This document shows, piece after piece, positions 3,766-17,540 of a DNA stretch of 46,396 bases. Source of the DNA: an uncultured Clostridia bacterium. Lineage in GTDB: Bacteria; Bacillota; Clostridia; Christensenellales; CAG-314. Every line of letters begins with the position of its first letter. Position 1 is the stretch's first letter. The stretch covers positions 1 to 46,396 of the forward strand of contig CANRFV010000012.1 of the NCBI GenBank assembly GCA_947629985.1, written 5' to 3'. The position numbers and the translations under genes are program-made. The notes beneath the pieces were generated by a model. It made no database searches. It was not told the DNA's origin and was given only the letters and a program-made list of their open reading frames with translations.

Positions 3766-3812
3766 TCAAAAAACAAACCTAAACCAAACTTTTTGGGGTT
3801 CGATTTAGGTTT
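3766..3812 (-). terminator. Intrinsic terminator of tRNA-Ser
   Basis: The outer stem AAACCTAAA/TTTAGGTTT (3775-3783 with 3804-3812) plus inner pairs is followed on the minus strand by GTTTTTTG. It starts five bases after the CCA end of the tRNA. Confidence 0.75.
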
Positions 3813-3816
3813 TGAT

Positions 3817-3908
3817 TGGCGGAGAAAGAGGGATTTGAACCCTCGCTACGCTATCCACGTACTACACCCTTAGCAGGGGCGCCCCTTCGGCCTCTTGGGT
3901 ATTTCTCC
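3817..3908 (-). tRNA. tRNA-Ser(GCT)
   Basis: 92 nt including an encoded CCA. The acceptor GGAGAAA pairs with TTTCTCC, the discriminator is G, there is a long class II variable arm, the T-arm is GGTTCAAATCC and the anticodon is GCT (codons AGC/AGT). Its 3' end (CTCCGCCA) recurs three times downstream in the same orientation. Confidence 0.95.
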
Positions 3909-4162
3909 ACATCCGGTATGATACAATTTTCAATTGCGTGATTATTTTAGCACAAATTTGTTCAATAGTAAAGTCATTTTGCACAAATATTGCAAATTTG
4001 TGTGCGGTGCGGCAGTGCAGTTTGGGCAGCAAGCGGCAATACGCGCTCGGTTTGGGCGCTTAAATTTTGCGTTTTATCGCCGTCGTGCCATATTAAACCC
4101 GCCTTGTAAACATCGCTTTGCCGTTCGCAAATAAATTTTAATCACATTCGTCGTCAAATCGA

Positions 4163-4205: not shown

Positions 4206-4281
4206 GGGGGTATGGCTCAGTTGGTAGAGCGTCGCGTTCGCAACGCGAAGGTCAGGGGTCCGAATCCCCTTATCTCCACCA
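4206..4281 (+). tRNA. tRNA-Ala(CGC)
   Basis: 76 nt with encoded CCA. Acceptor GGGGGTA/TATCTCC (two G-U pairs), D-arm GCTCAGTTGGTAGAGC, anticodon loop TTCGCAA giving anticodon CGC (codon GCG), T-arm GGGGTCCGAATCCCC. The CGC isoacceptor is a minor Ala tRNA. Confidence 0.9.
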
Positions 4282-4282
4282 C

Positions 4283-4323
4283 AAAACTCAAATCGAACAT
4301 TCGCTTCGGTTTGAGTTTTTTTT
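4283..4323 (+). terminator. Terminator after tRNA-Ala
   Basis: Stem AAAACTCAAA/TTTGAGTTTT with an inner CGAA/TTCG pairing, then a run of eight or more T. The A-tract on the other side may let it also serve the converging MntP-like gene. Confidence 0.8.
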
Positions 4324-4354: not shown

Positions 4355-4867
4355 TTACAGCAATTTTACAACGGCAAGTACGGTAAGTATACATGCCGAA
4401 ATCACGTTTGTGTGCGCAATAACTATTTTGTTTGCCAAAATTTGTCCCAGCCACACGCTCAGATAGTGCATTGCGGAAAACACGATCGGCGCAACAAGTC
4501 CTATTCCGTTAAGCGTAAGCGACAAGTTGGCAATAGCGGCGTCCATTCCCACGGCAATGCCTATCGTAACGCTTGTAAGGGGCGTAACGTCGTCCAGCCG
4601 CGCCGATTCGGTTTTGCCGTCGGCGATATTTATTACAGCCAACAACAGCAGCAGTGCGGCGCCTATCCAATTGATGTATTGTTGAGCAAATTGCGACAAA
4701 AATCCGCCCACAAACGAAGTTACAAGGCACAACAGCAACGTAATAAGCGCAACCGCCGCAGGCAAAAGCGTGCTTTGCCGTTTGTTAAGCGACAGTGAAA
4801 ATCCCGCCACAAAACTGTCCAACGATACGGTAATTGCGGTTATCAAAATAATTGCCAGGTTTTTCAT
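4355..4867 (-). CDS. MntP/YtaF-family membrane exporter (putative Mn2+ efflux)
   Basis: 170 aa with six hydrophobic segments in two related halves. The first carries SLDSF (residue ~15) and the second GMDAA (~106), the paired acidic transmembrane motifs of the MntP/DUF204 family. MntP exports manganese; the related YtaF is a sporulation membrane protein, and which of the two applies cannot be decided. RBS GGAG lies before ATG at 4867. I looked for a yybP-ykoY manganese riboswitch upstream and did not see one. Confidence 0.82.
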   Translation of the reverse strand: MKNLAIILITAITVSLDSFVAGFSLSLNKRQSTLLPAAVALITLLLCLVTSFVGGFLSQFAQQYINWIGAALLLLLAVINIADGKTESARLDDVTPLTSVTIGIAVGMDAAIANLSLTLNGIGLVAPIVFSAMHYLSVWLGQILANKIVIAHTNVISACILTVLAVVKLL

Positions 4868-5371: not shown

Positions 5372-5387
5372 ACGGTGCAACTAATTT
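5372..5387 (+). repeat. Prophage left attachment repeat (attL core)
   Basis: ACGGTGCAACTAATTT, identical to 17505-17520. The inner part GGTGCAACTAA matches 8 of 11 bases of the E. coli dif XerC arm GGTGCGCATAA. Confidence 0.7.
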
Positions 5388-5597: not shown

Positions 5598-6638
5598 TCA
5601 GTTCAACTTACTAAGTTGTTCGGCAAACATTTCGTCGGACGTGGCAAAATTCAGGACTTGTCTTGGATAACTATTTATCCAATCTTCTATAGCCTGTATG
5701 TCTTTGGCAGAATACTTGGACAAGTCGCTACCCTTGGGGACAAGACGTCGAATCTCACGGTTAAGCCGCTCATTAGTGCCACGTTCCCATGCGCAATATG
5801 GATGGCAGTAATATGTCGTTGTGCGTTTGCCGCGGTAAATAGATTTTTCAATTCCGTGAACGTTGGAAAACTCGCTGCCATTGTCCATAGTAATGGACTT
5901 AAAAACTTTCCGGAACAATTTGCCATAACGCCGTTCAAGAACATTAAGACAATGTATAACACTTTCTGAAGTCTCGTCTGGCATTCCGAATATAATTTCC
6001 TGACGCGTTAATCGTTCTGAAAGAACTAAAAACGCCGACCGAGATGAACCGCAAACACAGTCAAGTTCCCAATGACCAAAAGTACGCCGCTCAGATACTT
6101 CATCTGGGCGTTTTTCAATACTCGTTCCCTTTGGCGGACGTTTTGCAAACACTTTTCTATACTGTTTTTTGCATTGACGTATATTTGACACAGACAAATT
6201 ATCAAAAATACCAATAGATATGTACCGATACAGTGTCGTTTTTGAAATTCGAGTATTAAACAACCCCTTACGGTTTATTTCGCCCAAAGCAGCACACGGA
6301 GAAAGTTTGTCTTGCAATACACGTTTTTCTATATAACGCACAAAAGCAAAATCTTTGCCCAATTTTAACGGTGCGCCCTTGGACGTCATGGCAAAATCAG
6401 TCCGATTTTGCGCCAAATTGGGACTGTACCGCTTTACGGTTTTATACTGCCTTGTACCTACATAGTCCAAGGACGAAACAGTATGATCGTACTCGCCGCG
6501 TTTAATTTCATAATAAACCGTGCGTACCGACACGCCGAGAGTGTCGGCAATTTGTTGCTTGCTCAACTTTGCACGCAACAATACTTCCAATTGTTGACGT
6601 TGTGTAAACGTCAAGTTTTTACTACCTTTCTTTTTCAT
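5598..6638 (-). CDS. IS30-family transposase
   Basis: 346 aa from the ATG with RBS AAGGAAGG 8 nt upstream (an in-frame ATG at 6680 has none). The N-terminus has a helix-turn-helix (LTFTQRQQLEVLL, IADTLGVSVRTVYYEIKRG) typical of IS30. The DDE catalytic core shows FGHWELDCV (first Asp), ITMDNGSEF (second Asp) and NERLNREIRRLVPKG (Glu). I could not find convincing terminal inverted repeats close to the gene, and its RBS style matches the phage genes, so it may belong to the prophage rather than be a passenger IS. IS30- and IS3-type transposases are known in some inoviruses, including Spiroplasma plectroviruses. Confidence 0.88.
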   Translation of the reverse strand: MKKKGSKNLTFTQRQQLEVLLRAKLSKQQIADTLGVSVRTVYYEIKRGEYDHTVSSLDYVGTRQYKTVKRYSPNLAQNRTDFAMTSKGAPLKLGKDFAFVRYIEKRVLQDKLSPCAALGEINRKGLFNTRISKTTLYRYISIGIFDNLSVSNIRQCKKQYRKVFAKRPPKGTSIEKRPDEVSERRTFGHWELDCVCGSSRSAFLVLSERLTRQEIIFGMPDETSESVIHCLNVLERRYGKLFRKVFKSITMDNGSEFSNVHGIEKSIYRGKRTTTYYCHPYCAWERGTNERLNREIRRLVPKGSDLSKYSAKDIQAIEDWINSYPRQVLNFATSDEMFAEQLSKLN

Positions 6639-6708
6639 AACGTTAACCTTCCTTGCGTCATTATACCAAAATTCATTCATTTCTTAAAATTTCAAACCAA
6701 ATGAGTAT

Positions 6709-6967: not shown

Positions 6968-7966
6968 TTACACTAATAGTTTATCAAAAATAGACAGTTG
7001 CGTGTATGGGATATTTAAGACATTTGTTTCCCAATCCAAAACATCATCAAATACCACGAAACGTCTAAAATAGCCGTCAATCGGACAGGCTAAATCTCTA
7101 ACATTTAATTCGGTATAGATATGAGTTTTTATACCCCGACTGTAAAAAATCTTTTCGTCAGACTTACCTATGTACTTTAATATGTAATCAATTGCATTAC
7201 CTTTACGTAGTTCCATTTCGTTTAACTCCTGAAAATCGTTACGTCCAAAACGTAACTCAAAAAATGTGTTACAAGCAATTTCCTGCATATCGTGGGCAGA
7301 CGTGGAGTAGTCGCGCTTTTCATACACCTTTCCGACCATTTGACCATCAGGCACAAAAAACAATCCGTGAAAATGCAGCCGTCCCGTGTCCGGTGCGCGT
7401 TCGAAAACTCCCATATACTTCCAGCGACGGCGCGTATGCAAATTTCCCAAGCAACGGCGCACCTTCTTTTCGAATGCAACTTCGTCCATTTTGTTATCGT
7501 CGTAAGTTAAAGTTACAAAATAATTCCACTTGTTAAGATACGCCTTGTTGCGAAAACGCTTTTTACGCGCCAATACGCTGTGGTATTTGTTTTTCAAACG
7601 CTTTTTAACATATTCACGGGCGGCCGACATTTCACCGAATTGCTCCGTCAAACGCTCAGTCAAGGTGTTTTCCAGCGCGACACCGCGCAGCCCCGAATTA
7701 TGCGCAAACGAATATACTTCGTCAAAATAGTTCTGCATTTTACCTTGTTCGGCAGATATGTTGTAACGCTTGCGCGGAAATTGTGTAAACACTGTCGAAA
7801 CATTGACAGCCACATAATGACCGCCGTCATTATGTATCTTATAAATACTACATTCCTGCGGTTCGTCCTTAAACCAAACGATCGGCTTGTCGCCGTGCGG
7901 GGGCGTTGTATAAAGATTTACATTAAATTGTTGTATTCTGTGTACATAAGATGTTACGTCCGGCAT
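6968..7966 (-). CDS. HUH-type rolling-circle replication initiator
   Basis: 332 aa from ATG (MPDVTSYVH), chosen because GGAG lies upstream; an in-frame TTG at 7984 is the alternative. Rep motifs appear in order: motif 1 YFVTLTYDD (~149-157), motif 2 GRLHFHGLFF (~195-204) with the His-x-His that binds the metal, and motif 3 DYILKYIGKS (~260-269) with the likely nicking Tyr and a Lys. Such proteins nick the phage plus-strand origin and start rolling-circle replication. The structured intergenic region 7993-8225 just upstream is the likely origin. Confidence 0.88.
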   Translation of the reverse strand: MPDVTSYVHRIQQFNVNLYTTPPHGDKPIVWFKDEPQECSIYKIHNDGGHYVAVNVSTVFTQFPRKRYNISAEQGKMQNYFDEVYSFAHNSGLRGVALENTLTERLTEQFGEMSAAREYVKKRLKNKYHSVLARKKRFRNKAYLNKWNYFVTLTYDDNKMDEVAFEKKVRRCLGNLHTRRRWKYMGVFERAPDTGRLHFHGLFFVPDGQMVGKVYEKRDYSTSAHDMQEIACNTFFELRFGRNDFQELNEMELRKGNAIDYILKYIGKSDEKIFYSRGIKTHIYTELNVRDLACPIDGYFRRFVVFDDVLDWETNVLNIPYTQLSIFDKLLV

Positions 7967-7992
7967 TATCTTTATATTCTCCAATTTAGTTG

Positions 7993-8225: not shown

Positions 8226-10421
8226 TTATGGTCGGTTACTTTTTTGTTTGAACAAATTTACGAGCAAATCGGCAAAAAAGTAACTATGTTGTCTTGCGAA
8301 CTCTTGTACAGTCGCTTTTACGGCGCTATAACAAGGTACATCTTCTAAGCCGACAAGACTGCTTAGTGCCTTATTTGCGAAAAATGCGCTGTATGCGTCT
8401 GTTGCAAAGCGTTTGCTGTATATTTTTTTGTACGACAAATAATATGTCTTGTCTTTAATTTCGCCATCGCGTGTGCCCTTTTCAATTTGTAAGTCCATTT
8501 TGCAATACCCAAAAGTATTGTTTAAACGCTCTCGGTATGCATAAAACTTGTGCGAAAGCCCTTTTATCAAATACATCAGTAACGTATTATCCCCACGGCG
8601 AAAACGAAAGTCGGTATATTTGTCCCAAAACTTGTTTTGTTCCCAATCAAAAGCCAATTCGCCAAATGCGAATGTCGGCATAGCAAGTTTAGAATCCGAA
8701 TTGCCGTCAATATGGACAATTTCGCACAAATCTCGGGCGTCTGCGCCCCAACTGTCGGGACGTTGCTCGTCCGAAATTATTTTGACAAACGGAAAGTTAT
8801 CTACCGTAGCGGAGTGGCGAACCATTTTCAAAAAACTGTTAAACAAATCGTTTTTTTGATTCGCTCCGTCATCATTCTTTTTAACTTCTCTAAGTTCCAA
8901 AGCGTTGCCGCGTTCTTTTCCTATTTCAGTGCATAAAACCACGCCAAACTCAAAATAATTGGCGTATTTGTTATCTTCCAATACCTTTTTACCAAGTCGT
9001 AAAGCGTCAAAGTCCAATATGTGGCAATGTCGGCTGTAAGCGTCCATAAGTCGCGCGTCCGTCTTAAACAACTCGGAGTGCCACAACGGAAAATTGCCCA
9101 AATCTTGTAATATATTTTCAGTACGTACAGAGTAATTGGCTTGTATAAGCGAACACTCCATTATGTAAATAAAATACAATTGGCAATAATTTTCCAACAC
9201 CTTCCAGATGTCCAAGACTTCCAACGCATTGTTAAATTCAAGTCCGTAACGGCGATAATCGTAGCCGAATAACCCCACATTACGCCCTTTGCGCACGCCT
9301 TTACGCCATGCACGATGGCAGCACTGTACAAATTTTCTGCAACTTGCCAAATTATAGATATAATGCACAGATATTGCCTGCTTAATAGCATTTTCAAATA
9401 CTATCCACGGAAAGTACGGAAATTTTAAGTCATTTTGCAACAACTTTTCAAACGCCTTGTCGCGGAACATAATTTCGGTCGAAAGCCCCATATCCGTAAG
9501 CAAAGTTGTCTTGCGTTTGCCCATTGTGCCGACGATCATCGAAACTATCGGCAACTCGTTTATTAAGCCCCTGTTTTTCATTTCGTTGTGTAGCAATTTA
9601 CGGTAACCGATAGATTTGCGTATTTTATCCCACACAAACCAAGCAATAAGCAGCCAACCAATAAGTGGAATTGTGTTTATTGCCGTGCTTAAATCCAGCA
9701 ACAATTTACATACTTGCCTATAAAGGGATACCACATCAAACGATATGATAAAGTAAAAATAATAGGCAAAAAACTCCAACAAAATTGCGGCAGCATTAAA
9801 GTTAAACAACCACACAAAAAGCCACAAACGCCAATAAAAGACGTGTTCTTTTAAAAATTGTACAAACTGCTTGCACCAAGCCTTTACGGGCGCATAAATG
9901 CGCGCAGAGCCCTTTTTCCATACGCGCAAACAACGTGTATCAACATTGTACTTGTTGTTTGTTTTATCGGCACACAGCCGACAAATCAACACAACTACCA
10001 ATATAAACGGCAACAAAATAAGCAATATTTGTGCCAAAACATACAAGCCGTTTGCCAAATAAGCAATATAGTTTGTGCAATTATCCCAACTCGCCCACAC
10101 GTGCCAATAGTCGCCCCAAGCCAAAGTAAACTCCTGCCAAGTAGACGGCAAATTAAAGGGTAGTTGCAGCGGCACGCTCGACCAATTATTTACGGTAACA
10201 CTCGGTAAAACACCGTCGCCGAAAGACACAATATAATATGCCACCGACAGTCCGAAATCTCGGCAACTTTCGCCAAAACGTATGTAACTATCGGTAAAAC
10301 ACAATGCAGATACGAACAGACAAGCAATCGTAATACCTATGCAAATGTAATGCCGATAATTAAGGCGCTGCAAAAAATGCTTTACACGGCGGATACTTTT
10401 TTTAAAATTAACCTTTTTCAT
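8226..10421 (-). CDS. Zot/pI-like phage assembly ATPase
   Basis: 731 aa. Hydrophobic segments lie at ~25-43, ~123-149, ~199-229 and ~251-264. A P-loop ATPase region follows, with Walker A-like GTMGKRKTT at ~298-306 after the beta-strand PIVSMIV. The expected Gly before Lys is replaced by Arg, so this is an atypical P-loop. Filamentous-phage pI/Zot proteins energise virion extrusion at the inner membrane; here the membrane segments precede the ATPase, unlike the classical order with the ATPase first. ATG overlaps the stop of the 30-aa ORF (ATGA), implying translational coupling. Confidence 0.75.
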   Translation of the reverse strand: MKKVNFKKSIRRVKHFLQRLNYRHYICIGITIACLFVSALCFTDSYIRFGESCRDFGLSVAYYIVSFGDGVLPSVTVNNWSSVPLQLPFNLPSTWQEFTLAWGDYWHVWASWDNCTNYIAYLANGLYVLAQILLILLPFILVVVLICRLCADKTNNKYNVDTRCLRVWKKGSARIYAPVKAWCKQFVQFLKEHVFYWRLWLFVWLFNFNAAAILLEFFAYYFYFIISFDVVSLYRQVCKLLLDLSTAINTIPLIGWLLIAWFVWDKIRKSIGYRKLLHNEMKNRGLINELPIVSMIVGTMGKRKTTLLTDMGLSTEIMFRDKAFEKLLQNDLKFPYFPWIVFENAIKQAISVHYIYNLASCRKFVQCCHRAWRKGVRKGRNVGLFGYDYRRYGLEFNNALEVLDIWKVLENYCQLYFIYIMECSLIQANYSVRTENILQDLGNFPLWHSELFKTDARLMDAYSRHCHILDFDALRLGKKVLEDNKYANYFEFGVVLCTEIGKERGNALELREVKKNDDGANQKNDLFNSFLKMVRHSATVDNFPFVKIISDEQRPDSWGADARDLCEIVHIDGNSDSKLAMPTFAFGELAFDWEQNKFWDKYTDFRFRRGDNTLLMYLIKGLSHKFYAYRERLNNTFGYCKMDLQIEKGTRDGEIKDKTYYLSYKKIYSKRFATDAYSAFFANKALSSLVGLEDVPCYSAVKATVQEFARQHSYFFADLLVNLFKQKSNRP

Positions 10422-15911: not shown

Positions 15912-15945
15912 TTTGTTTTACTCCTTTGCCCTTTGGGCTTAAAAT
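15912..15945 (-). promoter_or_regulatory. Repeated hairpin-RBS leader, copy 1
   Basis: On the minus strand AAATTTTAAGCCCAAAGGGC is followed by AAAGGAG and TAAAAC: a GCCC-aaa-GGGC hairpin directly abutting the RBS of the 198-aa gene. Nearly identical (~30 nt) to the copy at 16204-16236. Confidence 0.65.
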
Positions 15946-16203
15946 TTATTTTTTATAAAGATAAATTCGCGCCAAATATTTTGCGCGGTTATTTGCTTTT
16001 TGACGGGAATGATAGCCATACTCGCCTTGCGCCCAGCTACCGTCATGTGTGTTAAAACCACGTCCAACAACATAATCGCCGGCAAGTGGCCGTTCAATAA
16101 CAGCGTAAATTCGACCATATTTTGAAGAATGGACGTTCCTTACGCGCCACCCGTATTGACGATAATTACGATTTTGGGGATATTGATATGTTTTTTCACT
16201 CAA
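15946..16203 (-). CDS. Small phage protein, unknown
   Basis: 85 aa, Tyr/Arg-rich (MSEKTYQYPQNRNYRQYG...), soluble, no membrane segment. Starts at TTG 8 nt after AAAGGAG. Position next to the ssDNA-binding candidate suggests a replication or ssDNA-binding role, but it is not recognised. Confidence 0.6.
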   Translation of the reverse strand: MSEKTYQYPQNRNYRQYGWRVRNVHSSKYGRIYAVIERPLAGDYVVGRGFNTHDGSWAQGEYGYHSRQKANNRAKYLARIYLYKK

Positions 16204-16236
16204 TGTTTTTACTCCTTTGCCCTTTGGGCTTAAAAT
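16204..16236 (-). promoter_or_regulatory. Repeated hairpin-RBS leader, copy 2
   Basis: Same GCCC-aaa-GGGC hairpin plus AAAGGAGTAAAA as at 15912-15945. A diverged third version (GCCgaaaaGGC AAAGGAG) precedes the gene at 16860-17306. Confidence 0.65.
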
Positions 16237-16545
16237 TTATTTGCCGTCCTTTGGTATTCCGAAATAAGCAACGGTTTTCTTATTTCGTTTGCCGTTTTCG
16301 TCATAAAAGTGATTGACAATCTGGTTTTTCGCCGTGGCGTTCAAGTCATAAGTATTACCTTTATACTTTGGCTTTCGTTTGTCGCTTGCGGTTACTATCA
16401 TATTGGGCAACCGGATATCAATCTTTCCAACAAAGTGATACTTTGGATTTAACCGCCTGAAACCATTTTTGCCATTTATCCAAGCGTCAGATGCATCAAT
16501 CAAACGTACGCCTCGGTGTTTTAAGCTATAATTTACAGTTGACAT
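16237..16545 (-). CDS. Small basic phage protein, unknown
   Basis: 102 aa, basic, soluble. RBS GAGG 5 nt before ATG. Sequence such as VGKIDIRLPNMIVTASDKRK is beta-like. Not recognised. Its start codon overlaps the -35/spacer of the opposite-strand promoter at 16539-16567. Confidence 0.6.
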   Translation of the reverse strand: MSTVNYSLKHRGVRLIDASDAWINGKNGFRRLNPKYHFVGKIDIRLPNMIVTASDKRKPKYKGNTYDLNATAKNQIVNHFYDENGKRNKKTVAYFGIPKDGK

Positions 16546-16572: not shown

Positions 16573-16697
16573 ACGTGGCACCGACGCCCCGTAGAGGGCA
16601 GCAACGGCAGATGCGCGTTGACAGAGAAGAACGTTTTGCCACATTGTGCGTAGACTTCTCACTTAACCGTCCGAATTATTTCGGGCGGTTATTTTTG
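16573..16697 (+). ncRNA. Candidate phage small RNA C
   Basis: About 125 nt. GTGGCA (16575) pairs with TGCCAC (16637) around a GCCC-gtaga-GGGC hairpin; GAGAAG/CTTCTC pair further on. It ends in the intrinsic terminator AACCGTCCGAA/TTTCGGGCGGTT + ATTTTTG (16665-16697). No ORF with RBS. The 3' part is antisense to the end of the 63-aa gene. Like RNA B it points against the coding (probably virion) strand. Confidence 0.6.
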
Positions 16698-16867
16698 TGC
16701 GCCGATGGAAAAAGCGATGTAAAACACTTTTCGCAATAAACTGTGTTTTTCCGTATGTCCGGATGGGGTATGCCGTAATTTATAACACGTTGGCAGTTAT
16801 CACAACAACAAACGTTTTTCCAATAACGGCGCCCATTTAAGGCACGAACTTCCATTTGCTTATACAT
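16676..16867 (-). CDS. Small zinc-ribbon-like phage protein
   Basis: 63 aa from the ATG that overlaps the upstream stop by 8 nt; a longer reading (to 16921) would lie inside the neighbour and has no RBS. CCCDNC and CEKC give two CxxC-type pairs ~27 residues apart, typical of a small zinc ribbon. Possible DNA-binding or regulatory role. No SD of its own, so it depends on coupling. Confidence 0.5.
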   Translation of the reverse strand: MYKQMEVRALNGRRYWKNVCCCDNCQRVINYGIPHPDIRKNTVYCEKCFTSLFPSAHKNNRPK

Positions 16868-17306
16868 TGTGCTTTTGTTGCAACAGCATATTAAGCAACG
16901 CTTTGTCGCTTTCTCGCGCAAGACGTATTTTGTAACGATATTCGACGCCGTCGTTATCGACGTTGCGCGCTTCGAAGGTACGGAACTTAATAACTTCGCC
17001 AGTTGTTTCGTTCGTCATTTGCCCATCGGATATTACCAATTCAGCCGTGTCTGCTATATCGAAGATAATGTCCAGCACTTCATAACCGCCCTGATCGTAA
17101 GCAACAAAATCTACCTTAACATCGCGTCCGCGAATTTTGCCGTGTATAGCGTACGACCAATATTCTTTTCCGTCGCGTCCCGTACATTTTTCGCGTTCCA
17201 ACCTAAACATACTGACAGATTCGTTTTCCGTAACAATTTTGTCGGTTGCCACTGCTTGTCCGTTTTCTTGACTTGTAGACTTTACGTTTTCTTGTTCTTT
17301 TGCCAT
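16860..17306 (-). CDS. Candidate ssDNA-binding (pV-like) phage protein
   Basis: 148 aa. Acidic, flexible N-terminus (1-30), then a beta-rich core (SMFRLEREKCTGRDGKEYWSYAIHGKIRGRDVK split over strands, VDFVAYD, YEVLDIIFD) ending with a short helix. Size, strand pattern and its place as first gene of the operon fit an OB-fold-type ssDNA-binding protein such as inovirus pV, which coats progeny strands and represses translation of early genes. Homology is not proven. The start has RBS AAAGGAG with a small hairpin just upstream, and the hammerhead ribozyme cleaves 56 nt before the ATG. Confidence 0.5.
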   Translation of the reverse strand: MAKEQENVKSTSQENGQAVATDKIVTENESVSMFRLEREKCTGRDGKEYWSYAIHGKIRGRDVKVDFVAYDQGGYEVLDIIFDIADTAELVISDGQMTNETTGEVIKFRTFEARNVDNDGVEYRYKIRLARESDKALLNMLLQQKHNV

Positions 17307-17335: not shown

Positions 17336-17356
17336 CTGTAAATTTAGTCCGATAAT

Positions 17357-17431
17357 ATCGGTGAGAACGCGAGTAAGGAGAGCGGAACTCGCGCCCTTTC
17401 GTCTTAATCTTCCAAGACTCATCAGACCGAT
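17357..17431 (-). ncRNA. Hammerhead ribozyme (type I)
   Basis: All conserved core elements are present on the minus strand. Stem I ATCGGT (17431-17426) pairs with ACCGAT (17362-17357). The core CTGATGA is at 17425-17419. Stem II GTCTT (17418-17414) pairs with AAGAC (17405-17401) around an 8-nt loop. GAAA is at 17400-17397. Stem III GGGCGCGAGT (17396-17387) pairs with ACTCGCGTTC (17374-17365) over ten positions including two G-U, with a 12-nt loop. The cleavage triplet CTC ends at 17363, so cleavage falls between 17363 and 17362. After cleavage CCGAT-att-ATCGG can form its own hairpin. Stem I is the open stem, hence type I. It lies in the leader of the first phage gene. Confidence 0.9.
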
Positions 17432-17450: not shown

Positions 17451-17487
17451 AAAAATAAAAGTTTGCAGAAAACAATGATCTGCAAAC
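17451..17487 (-). terminator. Terminator-like hairpin upstream of the ribozyme
   Basis: Stem GTTTGCAGA/TCTGCAAAC (17487-17479 with 17469-17461) followed on the minus strand by CTTTTATTTTTG. It is 20 nt before the hammerhead, too close for a promoter between them, so the ribozyme would be made by read-through or the hairpin has another role. Confidence 0.6.
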
Positions 17488-17504
17488 TAATATAAAACTT
17501 TTCA

Positions 17505-17520
17505 ACGGTGCAACTAATTT
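17505..17520 (+). repeat. Prophage right attachment repeat (attR core)
   Basis: ACGGTGCAACTAATTT, identical to 5372-5387. Here it is followed by TTTATATTTGT, a weak match to a XerD-type arm after a 6-nt spacer. Confidence 0.7.
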
Positions 17521-17540
17521 TACTTTATATTTGTAAATTG

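Follow-up and report, generated by a model that had tools for sequence, protein, structure and literature searches.

A type I hammerhead ribozyme in the first-gene leader of a small integrated rolling-circle element from Christensenellales

Introduction

Hammerhead ribozymes occur in prophages, where they often flank genes; some are active in vitro and in E. coli, and their position next to genes suggests a processing of long phage transcripts, as stated in the available text of Perreault et al. (2011; PMC3088659). According to the accessible parts of two further sources, hammerheads are enriched near genes of Mu-like phages (PMC10085705), and a 2017 review called their role in bacteria and phages an open question (PMC6155905).

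The DNA analysed here, referred to as the window, is a stretch of 46,396 nucleotides from an uncultured Clostridia bacterium of the order Christensenellales. It carries a ribozyme that is a new member of this known class. The ribozyme shares its core, the open stem I and the intergenic location in a mobile element with the bacterial and prophage type I hammerheads, as far as these are covered by the available text (PMC3088659), and it is of the same general type as 129 listed phage hammerheads, most of which are positioned just before start codons. Unlike in these phage hammerheads, the loop is pyrimidine-rich in several copies of the family, the small element with its rolling-circle Rep carries one copy whose place recurs, and the stem III hairpin spans 33 nt in the window (median of 33 nt in nine family copies) versus a median of 16 nt in the 129 listed phage hammerheads. 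New is the setting, i.e., the recurring place in small rolling-circle elements, a 5’ end predicted to re-fold, and an apparent exchange with tRNAs.

The glmS ribozyme of Gram-positive bacteria is likewise a self-cutting RNA in a 5’ leader that leaves an mRNA with a 5’-OH end, and its fold differs from that of the hammerhead. It differs further in its dependence on glucosamine-6-phosphate, and decay follows its cut (PMC3328962): in Bacillus, the 5’-OH product is degraded by RNase J1 and not stabilised, as described in the available text of two reports (PMC3328962; PMC11780869).

With inoviruses, the element around the ribozyme has in common that it is small and integrated and encodes a G2P-type Rep and, as judged by eye, a membrane ATPase and membrane-anchored proteins. 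In contrast to inoviruses, the ATPase matches no Zot/pI family and no coat or virion gene was identified, as judged from the genes. The open-licence literature yielded no paper on hammerheads or other self-cleaving ribozymes in inoviruses or on inoviruses in Christensenellales. The hammerhead recurs at one place in a compact element, relatives with and without the ribozyme can be compared, and one relative resides in a named strain, Pumilibacter intestinalis CLA-AA-M10 (L302).

The ribozyme lies within a 12.1-kb insert

The ribozyme is situated inside a 12.1-kb insert, about 75 bp from the insert’s right end. Twenty-four other genomes of the genus match the right flank somewhere, and 17 siblings lacking the insert were compared for the empty site. 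The match to the sibling chromosome extended on the left up to 4828-4844 in 16 of the 17 and resumed on the right at 17509-17535 in 15 of the 17. Siblings matching on both sides had 116-231 bp between the two matches in 15 cases and 733 bp in one. The breaks in sibling homology and the 16-bp repeats flanking the element together place the ribozyme inside the insert. Along the minus strand, the insert encodes, in this order, a 148-aa first gene, membrane-anchored proteins (identified by eye), a 731-aa ATPase, Rep and a transposase-like gene. The major features are:

5372-5387: left copy of the 16-bp direct repeat ACGGTGCAACTAATTT (repeat search)
5598-6680, minus strand: transposase-like protein, HTH_38 with a weak rve core (Pfam), which we take to be IS30-like
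6968-7984, minus strand: rolling-circle replication protein, REP_ORF2-G2P (Pfam)
8226-10421, minus strand: membrane ATPase of 731 aa with a P-loop-like motif, used as family marker (motif and membrane stretches by eye)
16860-17306, minus strand: first operon gene (148 aa), for which neither Pfam nor PHROGs gave a family at trusted score
17314-17349, minus strand: 36-bp module, third copy (78%), comprising a small hairpin and a ribosome site of the AAAGGAG type (repeat comparison)
17451-17488, minus strand: terminator-like hairpin (-13 kcal/mol, U-rich tail), some 20-30 nt upstream of the ribozyme
17505-17520: right copy of the 16-bp direct repeat ACGGTGCAACTAATTT (repeat search)

The hairpin at 17451-17488 was not listed by a consensus terminator scan with a loop limit of 8, and no convincing promoter was found, as the region contained 3 promoter-like sites versus 2.3 expected. 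The other two copies of the 36-bp module (15916-15951 and 16207-16242) are identical to each other, and the three copies precede three genes of the operon. A further hairpin, CCGCCCGA..TCGGACGG, was noticed by eye in three elements, in the gap that separates the first small gene from the 102-aa gene or the latter’s counterpart (window 16664-16691, where it is terminator-like on the plus strand; L304 ~3894-3918; L302 ~4279-4305). The segment 4846-5371 of the window is longer than the siblings’ matching intergenic stretch and without similarity to it. The sibling comparison leaves this segment unexplained; it holds promoter-like and terminator-like sites and is perhaps the trace of another insertion.

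In a preliminary description, the element had been called filamentous-phage-like and the first gene ssDNA-binding. The Rep supports the former label, as it matches PF23343 (REP_ORF2-G2P) with 44.7 bits at a cut-off of 27.8, identifying it as a G2P-type Rep. The ATPase does not: in sequence comparisons of 18 members with Pfam and PHROGs, no Zot family at E <= 0.1 and no other trusted family was obtained, and a single marginal PDB match was to an ATPTB1 chain. ‘Filamentous-phage-like’ thus rests on the Rep and the gene layout. For the first gene, labelled ssDNA-binding, neither Pfam nor PHROG gave a family at trusted score.

Sequence and isolated fold of the ribozyme

A complete type I hammerhead can be read directly from the minus strand at 17431-17357, with stem I open and stems II and III closed by loops. 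The full consensus proposed earlier (core CTGATGA, GAAA, triplet CTC and stems of 6, 5 and 10 pairs) was found in all its parts, as was the proposed location in the leader of the mobile element’s first gene. All parts are on the minus strand:

17357-17431: type I hammerhead ribozyme (letters, isolated fold, pattern uniqueness, descriptor, covariance model)
17431-17426 and 17362-17357: stem I, ATCGGT / ACCGAT (read directly)
17425-17419: core CTGATGA (read directly)
17418-17414 and 17405-17401: stem II, GTCTT / AAGAC (read directly)
between GTCTT and AAGAC: stem II loop GGAAGATT (read directly)
17400-17397: GAAA (read directly)
17396-17387 and 17374-17365: stem III, GGGCGCGAGT / ACTCGCGTTC, with two G-U pairs
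17375-17386: stem III loop TCCGCTCTCCTT, pyrimidine-rich, with similar loops in some relatives
17362-17363: predicted cleavage between C17363 and A17362, after the triplet CTC (from the hammerhead consensus)

Stem III is extended by an additional pair, A17397-T17364. The site thus possesses the elements that characterise type I, CUGANGA, GAAA and an NUH triplet at the cut, and also three helices round the core with loops on stems II and III and an open stem I. The predicted cut is located 56 nt upstream of the ATG at 17306. The minimum free energy (MFE) structure of the isolated 75 nt is the hammerhead fold; with a z-score of only -1.47 and 20 of 200 shuffled sequences folding as well, folding energy alone decides nothing. 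Pairing of loop II with the 3’ tail, the only contact tested, was not above chance in seven of eight copies (L443, p 0.0175). This pairing was rejected on these grounds; in the window, moreover, the AAATTT concerned belongs to the repeated module.

The predicted cut would create the 5’ end of the operon mRNA

Self-cleavage by this type I hammerhead probably makes the 5’ end of the mRNA of the first gene and the structural operon. RNA would enter from upstream, which in a putative circular form means the rep/transposase end, and after passing a leaky terminator-like hairpin would be cut 56 nt before the ATG. The upstream piece would retain stems II and III as a 3’ cap, and the downstream piece would start with a 5’-OH, its freed stem I strand pairing with a second copy of the complementary strand farther downstream (CCGAU-auu-AUCGG). 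Such a hairpin should promote release of the product and shield its 5’ end from 5’-to-3’ decay, with potential effects on RNA stability and gene dosage. Among the roles proposed earlier, the separation of read-through transcripts is the one favoured by the relatives.

The hairpin itself, which would compete with stem I as described earlier, is present in the sequence and in the folds at 17349-17361 on the minus strand (CCGAT-att-ATCGG); here the 3’ strand released from stem I finds its complementary sequence a second time, farther downstream. Equivalent hairpins at the start of the product are:

window: CCGAU-auu-AUCGG
L436: CCGAC-aaaa-GUCGG
L443: UCCGU-aca-ACGGA
L400: CCGAU-N10-AUCGG

The hairpin is short in L388 and L302 and, by eye, bulged in L395, and none was found in L304, L392 and L398. 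Shuffling of each leader gave modest values (window, p 0.0135; nine family members combined, p 0.048), and seven other hammerheads of the order yielded p 0.019. In a first set of viral contigs, preceding the larger one, the 13 phage copies showed no significant enrichment (p 0.25).

The larger set comprised, among the matches listed, 129 non-redundant phage type I hammerheads (365 loci by four scans, 197 before removal of near copies), which had passed the descriptor and therefore lean towards perfect stems. In 33 of these 129 listed hammerheads, a hairpin with four or more Watson-Crick pairs starts no more than 2 nt from the cut, compared to 14.6 ± 3.2 after shuffling (highest of 300 runs, 23). 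The share among the 129 listed was 0.26 at the cut, 0.17 one base further on and 0.05-0.13 at the next 23 offsets. In addition, 84 of the 129 had a motif resembling a ribosome-binding site and an ATG within 60 nt of the cut, compared to 8 in the antisense control. Among the matches listed, phage type I hammerheads are thus mostly at positions suited to making a 5’ end, and part of them can re-fold that end. Two viral contigs each contain four hammerheads in tandem (L220:4247-5331 and L224:10528-13298), with an ATG within 40 nt in the six products shown.

The decay of the 5’-OH glmS mRNA in Bacillus makes a hairpin at the very 5’ end meaningful, and the hairpin may be protective. Being enriched among the listed phage hammerheads, it provides a handle on how a 5’-OH message could survive. 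The same precedent from Bacillus subtilis, as given in the available text of the reports (PMC3328962; PMC11780869), would fit an opposite and rather unlikely role, in which the active ribozyme is a destabiliser that delivers the 5’-OH product to RNase J, so that the cut lowers operon expression and keeps the prophage quiet. However, the ribosome site is intact and the hairpin occupies the very 5’ end of the product, and the position just before a start codon in 84 of the 129 listed phage hammerheads looks like 5’-end making, although a destabiliser could sit there too.

Folding of longer RNA

In MFE predictions for growing RNA, the window ribozyme keeps stems I-III up to +16 nt past the cut and loses stem I at +18 to +20 nt, from where the core GGUCUGAUG pairs with the downstream UAUCGGACU in an inactive form. 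Stem I was lost at +14 in L436, +22 in L395, +26 in L388 and +40 in L302; L304 kept it to +40, and L400 and L443 showed no stem I in any MFE of this test. The MFE structure of L304’s own RNA is not the hammerhead fold. These results for L304, L400 and L443 and the inactive form of longer window RNA speak against the 5’-end reading proposed above. This downstream pairing with the core implies that cleavage must be quick or that the downstream segment acts as a brake. According to these models, the downstream segment may hold back cleavage in addition to trapping the product. The earlier proposal that the hairpin renders cleavage effectively one-way is therefore plausible in itself and has to be qualified by the inactive fold of longer transcripts, in which the core pairs with the downstream segment.

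These predictions also bear on an unlikely reading of the ribozyme as a timed switch, which would cut only while the polymerase is within ~16 nt; UAUCGGACU would then pair with the core GGUCUGAUG and lock the ribozyme off, and transcription speed, pausing or a bound protein would set the fraction that is cut. The loss of stem I between +16 and +18 to +20 nt in the window and its loss at other distances in L436, L395, L388 and L302 are in line with such a switch. On the other hand, L304 retains stem I to +40 and L400 and L443 never show it, the energies ignore tertiary contacts, and the pairing of AUCGG with the core is in part due to the similarity of CCGAU and CUGAU.

Hammerheads in related elements

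A strict scan of the first 40 ATPase loci gave no hammerhead, and one clear copy, L304, was present among 80 further loci. A covariance model, R1, was built from L304, the window copy and nine phage hammerheads, and then found L302, which is the same site as L041 among the first 40 loci. When 297 genomes of the order were searched with R1, 26 of them had a match at E <= 0.1, and R1 reached at least 33 bits at 13 places in 12 genomes. Copies within the element family are:

by R1: window, L302 (G177), L388/L409 (G253), L396/L408 (G034), L395/L430 (G262) and L392 (G112)
by local search without filters: L436 (G282, 42.9 bits), L443 (G230, 36.3 bits) and L416/L400 (G013, 37.4 bits)

The R1 matches L399, L401 and L402 were judged by eye to be chance, and L397 was set aside as it has no stem I match. 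Seven others (L386, L387, L389, L390, L391, L393 and L394) are predicted type I hammerheads in other contexts within the same order; by eye, a ribosome site and an ATG are nearby in most of them, and core position 4 is C in L390 and L391. A type II/III descriptor applied to 120 ATPase loci gave only one type III pattern, in one element (L037/L297).

To compare positions, the leaders of 40 out of 51 first-gene matches were examined; the other 11 were the second piece of one gene or loci that had been scanned without a hammerhead, and L042 is cut off at the leader. Besides the window, a hammerhead was present in the leaders of 5 of the 39 other homologues (L408, L409, L416, L430 and L436), L408 and L409 being near copies. 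The predicted cut lies 50-67 nt before the ATG in these six:

window: 56 nt
L408: 50 nt
L409: 50 nt
L416: 62 nt
L430: 67 nt
L436: 64 nt

In four further relatives, the hammerhead is located at the end of a rep gene or a rep-like frame. It follows the stop of a larger rep gene (Rep_OBD and RNA_helicase) by 1 nt in L304 and 63 nt in L302, and in L392 and L443 it is within 3 nt of the end of a frame which, by eye, resembles the same rep C-terminus. The L430 hammerhead begins, again by eye, at the stop codon of another frame, and in L388/L409 a homologue of the window’s 85-aa gene precedes it.

Nine family copies were aligned to R1, which includes two of them, and the alignment is biased towards this model. 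In the alignment without filters, 98.6% of the cells were paired, compared to 24-50% in versions slid along the sequence, and both sides had changed in 13 of 16 pairs, indicating compensatory change; under default filters, which admitted some copies only as short matches, the values were 95.4% and 12 of 16. Stem III of the window and L304 shares GGCGCG-(G)AGTTC, which points to common descent. Conservation of the core in related prophages, named earlier as a test of the ribozyme, holds in part: the core is intact in eight of the nine aligned family copies, and most relatives are without a ribozyme. An altered core, CCGGCGA, was found in L416/L400 and the relative L398.

The hammerhead was absent from 34 of the 40 first-gene leaders, the window’s leader being among the six that have it, and from 78 of the 80 ATPase loci, many of which end before the leader. 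According to a crude motif test, 27 of the 40 leaders are immediately preceded by a second small gene; the ribozyme occurred in none of these 27 and in 6 of the 13 others. On the protein tree, the ribozyme trait needs five changes, at least two of them forced by well-supported branches, and is not clustered (5 changes versus a shuffled mean of 5.8). This patchy, unclustered distribution shows that the ribozyme is dispensable. Among 391 genomes of the class, 4 were found to encode the first-gene protein, and all of these belong to the same order.

The patchy distribution and the family copy with the core CCGGCGA might be taken to indicate that the window copy is a decayed or inert remnant without function in its element. 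We regard this as quite improbable, as the core of the window copy is intact, none of its three stems is missing, and position and pairing recur in distant relatives.

Chance level and covariance models

The hammerhead pattern is unique in the window, was absent from 100 shuffled versions and is also unique in the available 2.37 Mb of the host’s own genome. A looser pattern occurred at 15 places in 14 of the 297 genomes of the order, and only the window’s site passed the three-stem descriptor. In 330,061,144 bases simulated with the composition of the window, this descriptor gave 62 weak matches and none with stems of at least 5/5/8; as the script counts pairs, the window site scores 6/7/11.

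Rfam searches gave no hammerhead, neither for the whole window at gathering threshold nor for 3 kb at E <= 10. For 161 bases round the site, the best match was RAGATH-1 (RF03152; 16.6 bits, gathering 56.3), and Hammerhead_3 (RF00008) reached 13.8 bits (gathering 48.5). Core and stem order align partly with both families, and the site, being below gathering, is not a member by that test. It was absent from the Hammerhead_1 (RF00163, gathering 34 bits) matches at E <= 10, and RAGATH-1 was above its cut-off in none of the 297 genomes of the order. For 12 of 12 sources in which the descriptor or model places a hammerhead, including L218 and L220 with their short, perfect phage copies, the Rfam search likewise listed none. 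The Rfam negative was therefore weighed lightly and not taken as a refutation.

A covariance model built independently from seven phage hammerheads, none from the window’s element family, had its best window match with filters off at exactly 17357-17431 on the minus strand (24.6 bits, E 1.3e-4; next match 10.9 bits). Default filters gave only a shifted match (14.1 bits, E 0.45), for which reason we consider this evidence good and not overwhelming. The covariance-model check suggested in the preliminary description was thus negative for Rfam at threshold and positive for the models built here. That the resemblance arose by chance, as the missing Rfam threshold match and the modest folding z-score might suggest, is hardly conceivable in view of the 330 Mb simulated without a match with stems of at least 5/5/8, the independent-model match and the same position in relatives.

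tRNAs and pyrimidine-loop hairpins in the same leader

The leader of the first-gene homologue in L285 contains a tRNA-Ser (gct), identified by ARAGORN at 2314-2399. L285 and L430, which has a hammerhead, are in one supported clade of the protein tree. In L294, the region 1481-1582 matches the Rfam tRNA family with 40.8 bits (gathering 29). Its anticodon arm contains a 36-nt insert, and a CCA is encoded directly after the structure, which was not called by ARAGORN. Judged from the letters, L314 has the same tRNA-like structure with a different insert at ~3810-3945, which Rfam did not list at gathering. The 3’ ends of these structures precede the ATG by:

L285: 66 nt
L294: 49 nt
L314: 50 nt

In L285, the hairpin TTCCC-gcga-GGGAA directly follows the CCA. 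The L285 flanks on both sides are common to L292, whose insert was not called a tRNA. A host-tRNA attachment site as the reason for the L285 tRNA was rejected, as the tRNA end is not repeated at the element’s far side; together with the flanks common to L292, this indicates that the tRNA is not simply an attachment site.

A pyrimidine-rich-loop hairpin was present in 8 of 23 leaders, compared to 0.95 ± 0.92 in shuffles; the score was set after examples had been seen, and the 23 leaders include near copies. The reverse-strand control gave 3 versus 4.65 in shuffles. The L285 hairpin is inside the tRNA and that of L292 overlaps the tRNA-sized insert, which leaves six, at 17375-17396 in the window and in the leaders of L280, L289, L416, L430 and L436; the L314 insert has another by eye. 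In the scoring ribozyme leaders this hairpin is stem III, and it occurs also in leaders without a ribozyme. It is possibly a protein-binding or anti-Shine-Dalgarno element.

The findings suggest that the messages of this element family acquire their 5’ ends through RNA cutting. As the tRNA cases amount to two independent ones among the 23 leaders, near copies included, we only tentatively propose the following extension: the 5’ end of the first-gene mRNA might be made by exchangeable RNA-cutting modules located at one spot, 49-67 nt upstream of the ATG. The module would be a hammerhead in some members and, in others, a tRNA or a similar structure on which host tRNA-processing enzymes act; it would often be followed by a short 5’ hairpin and would carry or flank a pyrimidine-loop hairpin that may bind the first-gene protein. 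The hammerhead would then be one solution of a system for message punctuation. Since other relatives have a tRNA in this position, the idea of 5’-end making can be tested directly.

The ATPase family

Relatives of the ATPase occur in 44 of the 297 genomes of the order; 40 places were taken from the matches in these 44 genomes, weaker or broken matches being left out at that stage. In the genome collection, relatives were found in 140 stretches, of which 79 loci were kept. One of 50,697 phage records contained a relative, and one viral contig was found by pattern scan and none by a single-sequence query. The family (window 8226-10421, L276-L355) is thus one of small integrated elements of Clostridia, with a single viral-contig match and outside the Pfam and PHROG families, and perhaps represents an overlooked lineage of viruses or mobile elements.
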